Assembly (NCBI GenBank): GCA_024643945.1
Contig: JAHELX010000178.1
Span: 1-10,002, forward strand
Reading direction: 5' to 3'
Source of the DNA: Anaerolineales bacterium
GTDB taxonomy: Bacteria > Chloroflexota > Anaerolineae > 4572-78 > NAK82
DNA: 10,002 bases
A program made the translations under genes and the position numbers. The notes beneath the pieces were generated by a model. It was not told the origin of the DNA, made no database searches, and saw only the letters and a program-made list of their open reading frames with translations. Below, one piece after another: positions 3,526-10,002 of this stretch. Position 1 is the first letter of the stretch; each line of letters starts with the position of its first letter.

Positions 3526-6500
3526 ATGTTCCGGCTGAGCAAATTGAAATCCTTACGCGTGGCCCCCGATTGGCATCCACGCTGGAAGGCCCTAATCGGG
3601 TGGGGTACGTTGCTGGGGATGATTCTGATACTAACCGCAGCATTCCAGTGTCAGGTTTTTCCAACCGACACTGCGAAGAATCCGGGGGTTGTACGCGTTC
3701 TGCCCTTTACTCCCTCGGAGCTTGAAAGTATTACCTCCGGCTTCATGGAGCCAACTAGCTGGGGAACCGCTGGCCTTCAACCGGCCATTTCTCAAAATGG
3801 AATAGACGTAAGACAACTGGCATCCTGGGGGAAGGACACCGGCTACGCAGTAGCGTTTGCGCCAGGCGGTAAGCTGCTCGCCGTGGGTTCTTCGGTAGGG
3901 ATCTACCTGTACGATACGCGAGATCTTTCCGAAACCGATCTAATAGTGACCGGCGTCCGGGTAAGAGGGCTGGCTTTCTCTCCCGATGGCGCGATCCTGG
4001 CGGGAGGGTTATTCGATGATACCGTACGACTATGGCGTGTGGCGGACGGGCGACACCTTCAGACGCTGAAGGGGCATACCAACTGGGTGAGAGACATTGC
4101 CATTTCGCCGGACGGAGCGTATCTTGCCTCAGCCTCGGATGACGACACAGTGCGCCTGTGGCGGCTCTCGGACGGCACCCTGTTGCGCACCATACAGGTA
4201 GGGACGAAGGGCGTCAGATGCGTGGCCTTCTCGCCGGATGGGAAGGTCCTGGCCTCAGGAGACCGGATCGGCGCTGTGCATGTGTGGCGAGTCGCGGATG
4301 GCAAGTTGGTACAGACGCTGCTCGGACACACCGAATGGGTGAGAACGGTGGCTTTCTCGCCCGATGGTAAGTTACTCGCCTCAGGATCGTTCGATAAAAC
4401 GGCCCGGATCTGGCAGTTGGCAAATGGTGAACTTTTGCATACATTGAAGGGACATACAGAGAGTGTCCTCAGTGTAGCTTTCTCGCCCGACGGTGCAACC
4501 CTCGCCACAGGCTCAGCGGACAAGACCATCGGATTGTGGCGCGTAACGGATGGGACTTCCCTGGGGAGATTAACCGGGCACGAGGGATTCGTCTTTGATG
4601 TAGCTTTCTCACCGGAAGGGGCCCTTCTTGCATCGGGAGCTGAAGACAACACGGTACGTGTGTGGAACGTCTCGGGCAAGGAGAAGGCCCAGGAGGCACA
4701 AAGTCAGAGGCCAGGAGAGGGAACTGCGTTTACGACCAGCGACTGTCGCTTTTGTCACCATCCGAAAAGCGCTACCCAACCCTCATTCATTGTGCAGGTC
4801 CGCTGTGAGACGTGCCATCCGGAGGGCGCGTCTTTGAATTGGTGTCCTGCAATTCCGCGTTCGAGCGGGATTAGAGGACTGCCGCGCAGTCTTGCGATCG
4901 AACCTTCCAGAAAGGGAGCGCCGGGAGACCGCAAAGATATCGGGCTGATCATCGCCACACCGGGCAATGGCGAGGTGCTCTATTCTCCCAACAATATGCG
5001 CTCCGTGGCTTTTGTCAAAGGCATCGTGTACCGTAATGGAGACCCCAGCGAAACCCAGGTTCAACTGGATCTATTTTCAGGCTCTAATCGAATCGCGACA
5101 TTGACAACACGTCCCCAGCAAGACGGGACATTTTCCTTTCCTCTCGGCCTGAGCCCAAATGGCGGGCTGCCCGTGAACCAGACAAGCATTGCCAATGATA
5201 TCCTCACTTGCCTATCCTGCCACTCAACCACAGTAGAAGCCTATCTGCCCCCAGGCCAGGTTCGCCTTGTGGTGAATGCGACTACCCCCCAGGGTTCGCA
5301 GGCTCAAGATGAACGCTGGATCGTCGTGGAACGTAGTGGTCAGGCAACGTCCCCCGTGAAGGTACTTGATGAAAACAAGGAAGAGCCCATTCCAGGATTG
5401 CCTGTGCAAGCAATTACTGTTTTGGACGGCTGGAGAGGACGCCAGTTCAGTGCGACGACCGATTCGAAGGGAGACGCAGTGCTTGAGATTGAGGCACTTA
5501 CGGAGGCGTCTACCCCGTATCTTGTGAGCGTGCCGTCGACCGTGTTGAATGGCGTGTTCTACAGCTCACGCCGGCCAGCTCAATTACTGCTTCCACCCGG
5601 TGCAGGTTCGGCAATCTCGGTGACCTTGAATGTGCGTGCCCAGTTAGGGCAGATCCAGGGTGGGCTCGAGCCAGAGGGAAGAGGCGCGGTGGGCTCCGTC
5701 CCCGTTTGGGCGGTTCGCTTGCCGGATGGCGCAACCCACCGGACACAAGCCACTTCCACAGGGCATTTCACTTTCTCACGTCTTCCAATCGCAGACTATT
5801 TGGTCATCTCAGATCCTGATGCAACGGCCGCCCGTGGATGGATTGGGGGGGCGCAAGAAGCCCGGTTGACCACGTCGCCGGTGATGACGATGAATCTGAC
5901 CCTCTCAAAGCTGGAAGGTCTGACCCTGAAAGGTACGGTCCGAGACATCAGTGGTTCACCCTTGCCTTTTGCCTGGGTTGAACTTGACCAGAAGGGGGTC
6001 GCGCTCCCAGTGAACCCGGATACGGGAGAGTGGCTCCTTAGAGGGATTTCCGCCGGTCCTCACACTCTTGTCGTCATCGCGCCGGGTTATTACAGCCAGG
6101 AGCGAAACGTCGCGGCCATACAGGAGACAGCGCAAACACTCGATGTCACTCTAGAGCGTCGACCTGAGACACGCATAGTCGCGTGGGGAGATGGCCAAGT
6201 CGTCATTCCCCCTGAAACGAAAGCCAGCGTCAACAATGGAATCATAAATGTGGAACACGGTTGGTTGTGGGGCAAGGTCGGCGCTGCTGACATCTTAACC
6301 CTCGACGTCTCTGGAGTGGAAATCAAGATGCAGGAGGGGACTTTCTCCTTTGAAAATCGAGCGGGCAAGACCGCCTGGTTCTATCTTGGGAAAGGGAAAG
6401 CGGACATCCAATCGCCTACTGCCGGCGAACCTACCGCCGTGGCTGGAGGTGAGATGGTAGCGTTACTGGAGGGAGGTCACCTATCTGCTGTCCCTCTCGA

Positions 6501-6759
6501 ACCAGTGGCCTTCCGCCTACTTCATCCAGCAGAAGAGACTCCACTTAATCCAGCATGGCAGCCCACAGTACAGGATCGCATCAAGTCATCGCTGACTCAA
6601 GCGGGGGTATCGGCGGCACAGATTTTCACGCTTGGTACCTATGTGGTGATCGTTCTGGCACTCCTATCTACGCTAGTCTTTGCATCGCTGCGATGGGTCA
6701 AGCGCAGCAAGGCACACATTAGATCAGAGGAGGACTCACGTGACGGAAAAGATGAATAG
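3526..6759 (+). CDS. Membrane-anchored WD40 beta-propeller / triheme c-type cytochrome-like fusion protein with FecR-like region
   Basis: I do not recognise this 1077-residue protein as a named family. Domains in order: a hydrophobic segment at about 23-41 after a basic start (signal anchor or signal peptide); seven WD40 repeats at about 104-381, enough for one closed propeller; two CxxCH motifs at C407/C410/H411 and C427/C430/H431; a beta-rich stretch with a third CxxCH at C562/C565/H566; carboxypeptidase-regulatory/Ig-like modules at about 610-700, 705-795 and 800-876; a FecR-like segment at about 880-990; a membrane helix at about 1036-1055; and a short basic, then acidic, cytoplasmic tail. 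CxxCH motifs bind haem c only outside the cytoplasm, consistent with the membrane-anchored design. ATG 3526 has AGGTGG 4 nt upstream. Its place between the anchor and chaperone genes suggests it serves the reductase, perhaps in electron transfer or surface docking (inference). Zn or Fe-S binding by the Cys motifs is possible instead. Confidence 0.85.
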   Translation: MFRLSKLKSLRVAPDWHPRWKALIGWGTLLGMILILTAAFQCQVFPTDTAKNPGVVRVLPFTPSELESITSGFMEPTSWGTAGLQPAISQNGIDVRQLASWGKDTGYAVAFAPGGKLLAVGSSVGIYLYDTRDLSETDLIVTGVRVRGLAFSPDGAILAGGLFDDTVRLWRVADGRHLQTLKGHTNWVRDIAISPDGAYLASASDDDTVRLWRLSDGTLLRTIQVGTKGVRCVAFSPDGKVLASGDRIGAVHVWRVADGKLVQTLLGHTEWVRTVAFSPDGKLLASGSFDKTARIWQLANGELLHTLKGHTESVLSVAFSPDGATLATGSADKTIGLWRVTDGTSLGRLTGHEGFVFDVAFSPEGALLASGAEDNTVRVWNVSGKEKAQEAQSQRPGEGTAFTTSDCRFCHHPKSATQPSFIVQVRCETCHPEGASLNWCPAIPRSSGIRGLPRSLAIEPSRKGAPGDRKDIGLIIATPGNGEVLYSPNNMRSVAFVKGIVYRNGDPSETQVQLDLFSGSNRIATLTTRPQQDGTFSFPLGLSPNGGLPVNQTSIANDILTCLSCHSTTVEAYLPPGQVRLVVNATTPQGSQAQDERWIVVERSGQATSPVKVLDENKEEPIPGLPVQAITVLDGWRGRQFSATTDSKGDAVLEIEALTEASTPYLVSVPSTVLNGVFYSSRRPAQLLLPPGAGSAISVTLNVRAQLGQIQGGLEPEGRGAVGSVPVWAVRLPDGATHRTQATSTGHFTFSRLPIADYLVISDPDATAARGWIGGAQEARLTTSPVMTMNLTLSKLEGLTLKGTVRDISGSPLPFAWVELDQKGVALPVNPDTGEWLLRGISAGPHTLVVIAPGYYSQERNVAAIQETAQTLDVTLERRPETRIVAWGDGQVVIPPETKASVNNGIINVEHGWLWGKVGAADILTLDVSGVEIKMQEGTFSFENRAGKTAWFYLGKGKADIQSPTAGEPTAVAGGEMVALLEGGHLSAVPLEPVAFRLLHPAEETPLNPAWQPTVQDRIKSSLTQAGVSAAQIFTLGTYVVIVLALLSTLVFASLRWVKRSKAHIRSEEDSRDGKDE
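3853..4668 (+). repeat. Tandem 126-nt (42-residue) WD40-coding repeats
   Basis: The segment coding for the AFSPDG-like core recurs with bases starting at 3973, 4099, 4225, 4351, 4477 and 4603, an exact 126-nt step each time. A more diverged first copy lies at 3853, 120 nt before the next. This gives seven blades. The unbroken 42-residue spacing and similar wording at DNA level suggest growth by in-frame tandem duplication. Confidence 0.85.
6726..6733 (+). promoter_or_regulatory. Ribosome binding site that decides the TorD-like start
   Basis: AGAGGAGG lies 6 nt before GTG 6740, inside the end of the WD40 gene. It favours GTG 6740 over the in-frame ATG at 6680 (no such site, and a deep overlap) and over ATG 6752 (18 nt away). 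Confidence 0.75.
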
Positions 6760-7551: not shown

Positions 7552-8877
7552 ATGATTATCGGTATTGATAGGGAAGCTCTGCGAAAAATAAAGAACCCGG
7601 CTTTCTCCTCTTATGCTTCTGTCTACGTTAGGATCTATGAAGACTTTATGGCGCAGATAAGACGAACAGGGATAGAGATTGACCCACAGAGTTACGAAAA
7701 AGAGACCAGCGAAAAAATTGAGCGACTGAAGCAAAAGGGTGCAATCCATAGAAACGACGATAAAAGCATCTATATAAATCGGATTTCACCCGCGTGTGTA
7801 GCTTGCCAGACTGGGTTAGGCAGCATGACTTTCTTTATCTCCTTACAGTGCCATCGAAATTGCTTTTATTGTTTCAATCCTAACCAAGAAAATTATGAGT
7901 ATTACTCCAGGAACAAACGAGACTGCTTGCAAGAACTCGGGTATATCCACGCTAACGGCCTGGAAGTCAAGCATTTGGCTTTAACCGGCGGAGAGCCGTT
8001 ATTGCACAAAGAGGATGCCGTTGAGTTTTTCAAGTACGCAGACGAGAGATTTCCTTCCGCGTATAAACGGCTCTATACTTGCGGAGATCATATTAACGAA
8101 GCGATATTGCAGGAATTAGGGAATGCGCACCTGGATGAAATCCGCTTTAGTATCAGAATTCAAGATTTGGAGAAAGGACACCGACATACCTACGATGGAA
8201 TTGCCCTGGCCAAAGACTATATCCCTAATGTAATGGTCGAGATGCCGGTGCTACCCGACACGCTAGAGATTATGAAAGACGTTTTGTTAGAGTTAGAGAG
8301 GCTGAAGATATTTAGCATCAACTTGCTGGAACTTTGTTATCCACTAGTCAATGCTGAAATCTTTAACCAGAAATCTTATAAAGTAAAAAATCCACCCCAT
8401 AGAGTTCTCTATGACTACTGGTATGCAGGGGGACTCCCAGTAAGCAGAAGTGAATTGGCATGTCTCGATTTATTGGAATTCGCCATTGATGAAAAGCTGA
8501 GGATTGGAGTCCATTATTGTTCGCTGGAGAACAAGCACACCGGGCAAATTTACCAACAAAATTTGAACGGGGAAATGCCCCAGACATTCCATTTCTCGCA
8601 AAAGGATTATTTCCTTAAATCAGCAAAAGTTTTTGGAGAGGACATTTCGAAAGTCCTGACAGTATTCAAAAAGGTCAAGCGCGCCAAATATGTCATCAAC
8701 CAAGAACACAATTATATGGAATTTCATGTGCACAATATCAAAGCGCTGCAGGATCTCGACATGGAAGTCGGGATATCGACAGGTGTCTTGGAAAGTCGCG
8801 AAGATGGGAAATATTTGAGAGAATTGAAAGTGGATTTGACATATCCTCAAATATTTGATCTTGCAACCGATGTGTAA
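7552..8877 (+). CDS. Radical SAM protein of unknown function
   Basis: This 441-residue protein has the radical SAM cluster motif C100-x3-C104-x2-C107 (CHRNCFYC), the aromatic residue before the last Cys being typical, followed by TGGEP at 145-149, the SAM-binding GGE motif. A further pair C82/C85 precedes the motif (ACVACQTGLGS), and more cysteines lie at 125, 177, 262, 304 and 323, so an auxiliary Fe-S cluster is possible. No standard SPASM pattern is evident. The start ATG 7552 has only a weak purine-rich site (GGGCGAG) upstream; the frame is closed by TAG at 7516, and M33 (7648) is an alternative start. The gene follows the chaperone by 95 nt and is visibly AT-richer than its neighbours (for example 20 G/C in 8341-8400), suggesting separate acquisition. 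A role in peptide or cofactor modification is possible but unproven. Confidence 0.85.
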   Translation: MIIGIDREALRKIKNPAFSSYASVYVRIYEDFMAQIRRTGIEIDPQSYEKETSEKIERLKQKGAIHRNDDKSIYINRISPACVACQTGLGSMTFFISLQCHRNCFYCFNPNQENYEYYSRNKRDCLQELGYIHANGLEVKHLALTGGEPLLHKEDAVEFFKYADERFPSAYKRLYTCGDHINEAILQELGNAHLDEIRFSIRIQDLEKGHRHTYDGIALAKDYIPNVMVEMPVLPDTLEIMKDVLLELERLKIFSINLLELCYPLVNAEIFNQKSYKVKNPPHRVLYDYWYAGGLPVSRSELACLDLLEFAIDEKLRIGVHYCSLENKHTGQIYQQNLNGEMPQTFHFSQKDYFLKSAKVFGEDISKVLTVFKKVKRAKYVINQEHNYMEFHVHNIKALQDLDMEVGISTGVLESREDGKYLRELKVDLTYPQIFDLATDV

Positions 8878-8916
8878 ATGGAGTTAATCATCATCCTCAT
8901 AATTGGCCTAGTGTAA
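8878..8916 (+). CDS. Possible 12-residue hydrophobic mini-ORF abutting the radical SAM gene
   Basis: An ATG directly follows the TAA of the radical SAM gene, giving MELIIILIIGLV and then TAA. No clear ribosome binding site is present, so translation would depend on reinitiation after the radical SAM stop. It could be a tiny membrane peptide, the remnant of a lost membrane-protein gene, or chance. It lies just before the structured leader at 8931. Confidence 0.2.
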   Translation: MELIIILIIGLV

Positions 8917-8930
8917 CTACAAAACTGAGA

Positions 8931-9077
8931 CTCTCCGAGCCCTCGAGCCTACGGCTCCTCAGCTATGGCTTAGTGGGCCGGACCCTGAGCGTATCTCAGG
9001 GGGTCATCTCCGTAAATTAAGGAGATGGTCGTGGGTGGGGAAGGAAACGCCCCTGCCTCCTCGTGCTTGGAAAGGAG
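8931..9077 (+). promoter_or_regulatory. Candidate molybdenum-cofactor (Moco) riboswitch aptamer
   Basis: This non-coding leader closes on itself: CTCT 8931-8934 pairs with GGAG 9074-9077 and CCGAGC 8935-8940 pairs with GCTTGG 9065-9070, leaving an AAA bulge at 9071-9073. Inside are a hairpin GAGCC/GGCTC (8945-8949/8953-8957), a hairpin CCCTGAG/CTCAGGG (8983-8989/8995-9001), a 7-bp hairpin CATCTCC/GGAGATG (9005-9011/9021-9027), and GGGG/CCCC (9037-9040/9050-9053) around GGAAAC, which can form a GAAA tetraloop (9044-9047). A TATGG at 8964-8968 could be part of a tetraloop receptor. The size, multi-stem layout and the AAACGCC segment resemble the Moco RNA motif as I recall it. The context (Moco enzyme operon upstream, transporter genes downstream) agrees. 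The pairing is seen; the ligand is inferred, and tungsten cofactor is possible. Confidence 0.6.
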
Positions 9078-9117
9078 AAAGAGCCTGCGGGTTTATCGCA
9101 GCAGGTTGTTGCGCCGG

Positions 9118-9155
9118 ATCGCCGGCCTTCCCAGCTAAGGAGGCCGGCGATTTGT
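9118..9155 (+). terminator. Intrinsic terminator-like hairpin, likely expression platform of the leader
   Basis: ATCGCCGGCCT (9118-9128) is perfectly complementary to AGGCCGGCGAT (9141-9151), an 11-bp GC-rich stem with a 12-nt loop, followed by a modest T-rich tail (TTTGTATT, 9151-9158). It sits between the aptamer candidate and the NTPase start, where a riboswitch terminator would be. A smaller hairpin CTGCG/CGCAG (9085-9089/9097-9101) precedes it. The 3' side of loop and stem holds AAGGAGG (9137-9143), but the ATG is 38 nt further on, so premature termination is likelier than direct masking of a ribosome binding site. Confidence 0.65.
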
Positions 9156-9181
9156 ATTGGTGTGTCACCGAAAGAGCATAA

Positions 9182-9751
9182 ATGAAGGCGCAACCGACAA
9201 TTGTGATACTTAGCGGGGAATCGGGGTGCGGTAAAACCACTCTCTGTACGCGGATCGTCGCTATGACCCGGGCGCGGGGTCTCGCAGTGGCCGGCGTCGT
9301 CACACCACCTCGCCTGACCGATGGCGGCAAGGTCGGACTGGATGTGGAAGACATCCGCTCTGGCCAGCGCCGCCCCCTGGCGGAAGCCTATGCTGAATCC
9401 CACCCCAGCATCGCTGGCGCTGCGGCTGGACCGAGGATGGGGAGTTGGCAATTCTACGCCGACGGCCTGGCCTGGGGGGCGATGCTGCTGCGCCTTGCCA
9501 CACCGTGTGATTTGCTGGTCATCGATGAACTGGGGCCACTGGAGTTGCTCCAGGGTCAGGGATGGACGGTGGGCCTTGAGATCCTCCGGGGCAGCCATTA
9601 CCGCATGGCCCTGGTCACTGTCCGGCCAGGACTGTTGCCACATTTGCGGAAACGGTTAGACCCAGGGGAGCCAATCACCCTGACCATGACCCGAGCTAAT
9701 CGGGATGCGTTACCCGCCCACATCATAGCCCTGTTAGGAGCGGATGGATGA
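9182..9751 (+). CDS. THEP1-like P-loop nucleoside-triphosphatase
   Basis: This 189-residue soluble NTPase has a Walker A motif GESGCGKT (residues 12-19) and a Walker B-type segment LLVIDELGPLEL (111-122) with the DELGPLEL form typical of the THEP1/COG1618 NTPase family. The region GVVTPPRLTDGGKVGLDVEDI (38-58) also matches that family's layout. The family hydrolyses nucleoside triphosphates, but its physiological role is poorly known. ATG 9182 is preceded by an in-frame TAA at 9179 and by a weak GAAAGAG 5 nt upstream, so the start is fixed. It overlaps the ABC ATPase gene through ATGA, so the two are co-translated. Lying behind a candidate Moco riboswitch, it could act in cofactor nucleotide chemistry in a MobB-like way or assist transport; this is inference. 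MobB itself is less likely because of the DELGPLEL motif. Confidence 0.83.
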   Translation: MKAQPTIVILSGESGCGKTTLCTRIVAMTRARGLAVAGVVTPPRLTDGGKVGLDVEDIRSGQRRPLAEAYAESHPSIAGAAAGPRMGSWQFYADGLAWGAMLLRLATPCDLLVIDELGPLELLQGQGWTVGLEILRGSHYRMALVTVRPGLLPHLRKRLDPGEPITLTMTRANRDALPAHIIALLGADG

Positions 9752-10002
9752 TCCAGATCGAAGAACTGACTGTGCGCTATGGGCAGCATCAGGCACTGGA
9801 CAAGGTGAGCCTGCACATCACCCCCGGCGAATTCGTCCTGGTGACCGGCCCCTCAGGCTGTGGCAAGAGTACCCTGGCCCACTGTCTGAATGGTCTCATC
9901 CCCCACGCTATCCCGGCCGAACTGTCCGGCCAGATCATCGTGGACGGACGTGTCACGACGCATTGCTCTGTGGCGGAGCTGGCGACGACAGTGGGTCTGG
10001 TC
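9748..10002 (+). CDS. ABC/ECF-type transporter ATP-binding protein (CbiO/EcfA-like), 3' partial
   Basis: The first 85 residues of an ABC ATPase are visible before the window ends. Walker A is GPSGCGKST (34-42), after an A-loop tyrosine (Y11) in the TVRYGQHQALDKVSL start. The following HCLNGLIPH segment and the later VGLV (just before the expected Q-loop) are characteristic of energy-coupling-factor ATPases (EcfA/CbiO/YkoD type). These power vitamin, cobalt or nickel uptake with an EcfT and a substrate-binding S component, which should lie beyond the window. ATG 9748 overlaps the NTPase stop in ATGA and has AGGAG (9736-9740) 7 nt upstream. The substrate is not known; the upstream leader hints at a molybdenum-cofactor link. 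Confidence 0.9.
   Translation, partial: MIQIEELTVRYGQHQALDKVSLHITPGEFVLVTGPSGCGKSTLAHCLNGLIPHAIPAELSGQIIVDGRVTTHCSVAELATTVGLV

Follow-up and report, generated by a model that had tools for sequence, protein, structure and literature searches.

The leader in front of the last two genes of the window (the whole stretch of 10,002 nucleotides analysed here) is a real Moco riboswitch on a THEP1-ECF operon, one of a recurring set of ECF importers behind Moco riboswitches that is undescribed as far as our searches went. We consider it probable, at roughly 60%, that this riboswitch controls a group I ECF importer together with THEP1 and that the importer supplies molybdenum, most likely as molybdate (with tungstate possible). 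The operon would then encode a complete group I importer (herein ECF(i)) consisting of a fused A-A' ATPase, a YkoE-fold S component of the family S(i) and a T component, accompanied by the THEP1 NTPase, and this importer would supply molybdenum for Moco in bacteria that make the cofactor yet mostly lack ModA.

When the entire window was scanned against Rfam, RF01055 (Moco riboswitch) was the sole family above its gathering score, matching over the full model (1-135) with an E-value of 2.8e-13, and a search of 8700-9400 with permissive filters brought no second riboswitch class near significance (runner-up E 1.3). The earlier note on this DNA, made from the letters alone, had proposed that the leader resembles the Moco motif and that Rfam and homologous leaders be consulted; the proposal is borne out by the RF01055 covariance model, by covariation in 14 homologous leaders and by recurrence elsewhere. 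The features discussed below are as follows.

8921-9093, + strand: Moco riboswitch aptamer, RF01055 (cmscan, 61.9 bits, gathering 36)
8932-8936 (TCTCC) with 9074-9078 (GGAGA), + strand: P1 closing helix (14-leader consensus; 95.7% of cells paired)
8983-9001, + strand: P3a hairpin, 7 pairs, loop 8990-8994 (folding of the P3 interval)
9002-9030, + strand: P3b hairpin, 10 pairs, loop 9012-9020 (folding of the P3 interval)
9115-9154, + strand: terminator-like hairpin, 16 pairs, loop of 8, weak T tract (helix listing, folds)
9182-9751, + strand: THEP1-type NTPase, 189 aa, first gene of the operon (PF03266, 76.8 bits, cut-off 23.9)
9748-10002, + strand: 5' portion of the gene for the ECF A-A' ATPase, truncated by the window end (PF00005; 68% identity to L003 EcfA-A')

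P3a and P3b, in that order, form a tandem hairpin pair at the P3 position, and the P3a sequence is nearly identical in the related loci L003, L004 and L005. A sigma-70-type scan of the + strand of 8700-9400 found no promoter-like site. Across the 14 THEP1/ECF(i) leaders (12 with an ECF importer and two with a FecCD-type importer), 90.6% of the cells of the consensus structure are paired and 15 of its 25 pairs show double-sided changes; none of 500 shuffles was as good, and sliding the partners lowers pairing to 36–48%. In these leaders, 25–69 nt lie at the P3 position, and 12 of the 14 form two hairpins in tandem there, the first of which has only three pairs in L139 and L140. The best fold never gives two hairpins in the P3-bearing leaders of other genes (Tup, Wtp, Moa, S(ii), DUF364; n = 12); the L180 leader could alternatively be drawn with two. 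Two hairpins do form in the ModA leader and in two more leaders, all of genome G127. P3 is absent from 18/21 leaders of the second S component family, S(ii), and from 5/6 leaders of tungsten-type AOR genes (some assigned by eye), L093 with its P3-like hairpin being the exception among the latter.

In the part of Regulski et al. (2008; PMC2408646) covered here, RNAs with P3 are linked to Moco and those lacking it to the tungsten cofactor. TupBCA-type genes, which have a P3-bearing RNA ahead of them in 5/8 cases, break this rule; because of them and of the L093 hairpin, we treat P3 as a hint rather than proof and have rejected a reading of molybdenum versus tungsten from P3 alone. The presence of the P3 region in 14/14 S(i) leaders, set against its frequent absence from S(ii) and AOR leaders, nevertheless offers a handle on the Moco-versus-tungsten-cofactor question. 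Compared with the RF01055 family as that part of PMC2408646 presents it, the RNAs described here share the whole aptamer, the conserved cores, helices P1, P2, P4 and P5 and the molybdenum or tungsten genes downstream, and differ in the tandem P3 hairpins and in having an ECF importer as target.

Downstream of the aptamer, the earlier note had described an 11-bp terminator-like hairpin; the hairpin is present but longer, pairing 9115-9130 with 9139-9154 when G-U pairs are included, and the T tract that follows it is broken and weak (GATTTGTATT). It is not among the sites returned by a simple terminator scan. A script located hairpins in the stretch from aptamer to first gene in 12 of the 14 leaders (L175 and L144 being the two without; a count made without a shuffle control), 10 of these 12 hairpins have at least five T in the best eight bases at the stem end, and the best downstream partner of the GGAAAGGAG strand of P1/P5 falls within the located hairpin in 10/12 leaders. 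Antiterminator pairing of that strand passes 0.05 against shuffles in two of the 14 leaders when each is taken alone (L141 and L152). Terminator-type platforms of Moco riboswitches were described by Regulski et al. (2008), and the E. coli Moco RNA represses once Moco is made (PMC2408646, in the part covered). It is likely that the leader is an OFF switch acting by termination, a grade set by the weak T tract in the window, the few leaders that pass the shuffles and the uncontrolled hairpin count, and the direction of switching is one that we infer. When Moco is plentiful, the aptamer would close, P1 would take up the GGAAAGGAG strand, and the downstream hairpin would terminate transcription and turn the operon off; when Moco is scarce, the operon would be transcribed. 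Between 9137 and 9181 the window also holds a strong Shine-Dalgarno-like AAGGAGG within the terminator-like hairpin, and a TTG at 9152 opens a nine-codon frame whose TAA end lies just ahead of the THEP1 ATG.

Both genes that the earlier note had placed behind the leader, a THEP1-like NTPase and an ECF-type ATPase, hold up. The THEP1 product, which has 261 homologues at E ≤ 0.001, exceeds the PF03266 cut-off, stays below that of NCBIfam PRK13695 (68.9 against 156) and matches MobB (PF03205) weakly (21.4 bits against 26.6). The gene that follows overlaps it by 4 bases, and its first 85 residues, a PF00005 ABC ATPase stretch, align over 85 aa with the ECF A-A' ATPase of L003; the ECF models TIGR04520/04521 are among its many ABC matches, all far under whole-protein cut-offs, as expected at 85 residues. 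Upstream, the window start truncates a gene for a DMSO-reductase-like catalytic subunit; DmsB, an anchor resembling DmsC and a chaperone resembling TorD/DmsD are also encoded there. The neighbouring Moco enzyme operon from which the earlier note drew support is thus real, but by itself it adds little. Inside this DMSO-reductase-type cluster lies a gene (3526-6759) whose 1077-aa product has WD40 repeats and three CxxCH motifs. A radical SAM gene (7552-8877; GC 42%, against 54–63% for the other window genes; no NCBIfam equivalog cut-off reached) stops 43 bases ahead of the riboswitch.

The S and T genes would lie beyond position 10002, and we take their nature from relatives. A 20,391-bp Anaerolineae contig is given for two proteins, P0004 (84% identical to the window THEP1) and P0208 (73% identical to the membrane protein of L003), and we infer that they sit together on it; P0208 stands beside L003 in the S(i) tree; from the listing and the tree position, the window's own S component most probably belongs to S(i).

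From the THEP1 homologues we arrived at 80 loci, about 60 of which have Chloroflexota titles. The Moco RNA of L003 (48.8 bits) stands ahead of genes for THEP1, a fused ECF ATPase of 487 aa, a membrane protein of 200 aa and EcfT (PF02361, CbiQ/EcfT, 51.0 bits), and the survey of other genomes for THEP1-ECF loci behind Moco motifs, which the earlier note had called for, found that the arrangement recurs. A search with the S(i) alignment matched 43 of 396 class genomes (five of them weakly) and 10 of 400 genomes drawn from the phylum. The order A-A', S, T holds in 33 of the 40 fetched S(i) places and also in L003, and THEP1 stands ahead of the ECF genes in 13 of these 41 loci. RF01055 was searched in 44 S(i)-matching genomes and its hits were compared with S(i) by place, RNA searches across more than 40 genomes being run with stricter filters. 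A Moco RNA heads 11 of the 26 S(i) operons with enough upstream DNA, 1.6–4.0 kb upstream of the S gene and on the same strand, where enough means about 3.9 kb or more except for L168 (2.8 kb), kept since the RNA is seen there (10/25 without it). All 11 RNA-bearing operons fall outside one supported 21-row clade of the S(i) tree, in which the testable operons divide into 11/11 with the RNA outside the clade and 0/15 inside; twelve S(i) rows are cut short, and the tree omits three further loci, L173 and L174 with a partial S and L176 with a distant one. No Moco RNA was found near L173 in 7.1 kb of upstream DNA, and L176 lies about 7 kb from a Moco RNA belonging to an S(ii) gene. The RNA-less clade counts against our preferred explanation, as do three THEP1-ECF genomes (G031, G034 and G038) in which no RF01055 match was found anywhere; the genome-wide RF01055 search and the neighbour survey covered the first 40 of the 80 THEP1 loci.

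Several S(i) operons include further genes, two of them mobB-mobA. In L152, a single Moco RNA is followed by MoeA, MobB, MobA, A-A', S and T, with MobB ahead of the ECF genes and THEP1 located elsewhere; the L144 operon runs from the Moco RNA through THEP1, A-A', S, a lipoprotein with PF00174 and T to MobB and MobA. Such lipoprotein genes lie between S and T at L139:7451-7933, L140:7457-7936 and L144:2803-3252; they match PF00174, the oxidoreductase molybdopterin-binding domain, at 43.2–47.9 bits (cut-off 24). In L162 an FmdE (PF02663) gene follows T. Among the 40 surveyed THEP1 loci, a PF01497-FecCD-type importer module adjoins 21, ECF(i) six and neither 13, some of these 13 being loci where the contig ends. 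The PF01497-FecCD importers, which we take to be MolBCA-type, share the THEP1 partner, and a Moco RNA stands ahead of them in at least three THEP1 loci (L004, L005, L095/L040); unlike ECF(i), they depend on a binding protein. In L095 (4277-5023) and L040, a DUF364/DUF4213 'heavy-metal chelation' gene heads the PF01497-FecCD operon behind the Moco RNA, and THEP1 comes last.

The solved structure nearest to S(i) is YkoE, and the S(i) component has the YkoE fold; when the S(i) alignment was searched by sequence against the PDB, nothing matched at E ≤ 10. Because the group I ECF importer YkoEDC transports thiamine and its YkoD, like the ATPase here, is a fused A-A' protein (PMC5037267, in the part covered), ECF(i) might be read as an ordinary YkoEDC-type importer of thiamine or HMP with a Moco RNA in front of it by coincidence. 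The L003 S(i) protein scores 25.1 against a cut-off of 25.2 for PF09819, and some S(i) homologues carry precomputed PF09819 annotations, as this reading would have it. The binding site speaks otherwise: of the five thiamine contacts of YkoE that we compared (Tyr46, Trp49, Glu77, Gln95 and Asp131), all are missing from every one of 38 S(i) rows, and Glu77 is replaced by Lys/Arg. Since the Gln95 column is aligner-dependent in S(i) (Glu in MAFFT, Val in hhalign), we discarded that residue as an argument on thiamine. The S(ii) family (19 rows) keeps one of the five, Glu77 (19/19), with Trp49 changed to His, Gln95 to Ala and Asp131 to Gln in all 19. Nor was any TPP riboswitch (RF00059) found near S(i) in 44 genomes, although 39 of the 44 have one over cut-off, and the sole example on an S(i) contig is 81 kb distant (G045); control of the S(i) ECF genes by TPP is hence rejected. 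Eight other YkoE-like S matches from the same genomes (weak S(ii) matches that are not S(i) genes) served as a positive control: five have a TPP riboswitch within 1.1 kb upstream on the same strand (G399:C143, G485:C75, G460:C267, G480:C7 and G465:C25); those in G442, G503 and G262 lack such a riboswitch. Moco-controlled and TPP-controlled importers of the YkoE fold therefore coexist in one cell. Together with the placement of the Moco RNA and the moeA, mobA and mobB genes within the operons, these observations make a thiamine or HMP importer a very poor candidate. The earlier note had regarded a downstream S component of known, unrelated specificity as counting against its proposal; the S components of the relatives, with a YkoE fold that lacks the thiamine contacts, are not of that kind.

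A second, similarly placed family, S(ii), was found at L089:4567-6108 (G013:C6), where the gene behind a Moco RNA encodes a 463-aa protein and is followed by those for a fused ATPase and a putative T component. The 463-aa protein begins with an S component that matches PF09819 at 70.4 bits and YkoE 5edl at 53.2 bits, and its tail has a PF00174-like region (29.4 bits). S(ii) matches occur in 57 of 392 class genomes, 19 of them full length, and all 19 full-length cases lie directly behind a Moco RNA of the same strand (21/22 when three partial strong matches are added; matches weaker than E 1e-40, in 35 of the 57 genomes, were excluded from this count), the S gene coming first after the RNA. These operons bear on the notion that the riboswitch governs only THEP1 and that the ECF genes merely ride along, which would agree with THEP1 being the first gene of the window and with several S(i) operons having no RNA. 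We find it scarcely credible, given that S(ii) operons sit behind the RNA with the S gene first, that in L139, L140 and L152 the RNA precedes an ECF operon with no THEP1 in front, and that the THEP1 and EcfA genes of the window overlap.

For the substrate, we compared the content of 39 S(i) genomes with that of 39 class-mates without S(i), picked by handle number among genomes not listed as S(i)-matching; all figures are raw genome counts that ignore kinship and incomplete bins. ModA exceeds its cut-off in 3/39 S(i) genomes against 21/39 class-mates (Fisher 1.5e-5, kinship ignored), MoaC is present in 35/39 against 34/39, WtpA in 11/39 against 4/39, and TupA-like matches, none reaching the NCBIfam cut-off, in 21/39 against 20/39. 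These counts indicate that most bacteria with S(i) make Moco and that a tungstate-type importer is often present in them, one of the molybdate type rarely. Among genomes with TupA-like matches, ModA accompanies 1/21 with S(i) and 10/20 without, and seven genomes per group have none of the three binding proteins (ModA, WtpA, TupA-like). Since WtpA or a TupA-like protein is often present, ECF(i) is rarely the sole possible molybdenum or tungsten importer. Judged by genome content, the likeliest substrate is molybdate or tungstate, and the link to molybdenum or tungsten supply suggested in the earlier note gains strength from mobA, mobB and moeA in the same operons and from the rarity of ModA. 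THEP1 would probably be an accessory P-loop NTPase that resembles MobB and serves cofactor assembly or transport. It shares the P-loop NTPase character of MobB (and the weak PF03205 match in the window) but differs in that L144 carries both proteins; a role as plain MobB substitute was rejected on this ground and because MobB exceeds its cut-off in 30/39 S(i) genomes against 20/39 others.

Substrates of ECF importers are usually organic cofactors, and the importer might accordingly take up the pterin part itself (molybdopterin, Moco or an organic molybdenum complex), with the extracytoplasmic PF00174 domain as receptor. The PF00174 lipoproteins of L139, L140 and L144, whose genes separate S from T, and the PF00174-like region fused to the S(ii) component of L089 are in keeping with this. 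We nonetheless regard pterin uptake as unlikely: MoaC is as common with S(i) as without, so that most of these bacteria make the pterin themselves; ModA, rather than synthesis, is what S(i) genomes rarely have; the lipoprotein matches span only about positions 47–163 of the 169 of PF00174; and the TupA of G003 has a weak PF00174-like stretch of its own (below cut-off), which is compatible with oxyanion handling. A broader version, in which the Moco-riboswitch ECF systems import Mo-pterin (Moco/molybdopterin) through a PF00174 receptor, S(i) taking the molybdenum form and S(ii) the tungsten form, strikes us as rather doubtful. If true, it would be the first cofactor-salvage importer for Moco, and the S families, each with its own RNA shape (tandem P3 versus mostly P3-less), would correspond to molybdenum and tungsten forms.

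Supply of molybdenum by ECF(i), our preferred reading, would explain the metal source of many Anaerolineae that make Moco without ModA. ModABC, WtpABC and TupABC have a soluble binding protein and a permease fold unlike that of ECF importers, and to our knowledge ECF substrates are otherwise vitamins and Ni/Co ions. The oxyanion importers likewise stand behind Moco RNAs in these genomes, where such RNAs precede moeA, moaA, WtpA, TupBCA, AOR and ECF genes, as well as ModA in G127. Neither a Moco-controlled ECF importer nor an ECF importer for molybdenum, tungsten or their cofactor was found in the literature searched (open-licence PubMed Central only), and the terms 'ECF', 'energy-coupling' and 'NTPase' were not found in the main text of PMC2408646. 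Of the related reports, in the parts covered, one concerns the cobalt importer CbiMNQO (PMC13119186) and another places a Moco riboswitch ahead of moaA/moaC in Dehalogenimonas (PMC13390414). Cofactor riboswitches have helped to identify ECF vitamin importers (PMC3766115, in the part covered), and a riboswitch that names a cofactor is, in the same way, a strong prior on the substrate of an unnamed S family.

Three further observations were made in related genomes. Pairs of Moco RNAs on the same strand, 0.1–0.8 kb apart, occur at L090, L202, L204 (before WtpA), L089 and L216. Immediately upstream of THEP1 at L001:9271-9960 lies a gene for a remote S-like protein weakly related to S(i) (17/39 identical; profile E 4.9e-4), near which no same-strand EcfA-A' or T match was found. 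At L091:2843-4219 (G003:C155), a TupA-like protein ends in a C-terminal PF00174-like stretch (21.8 bits, below cut-off).
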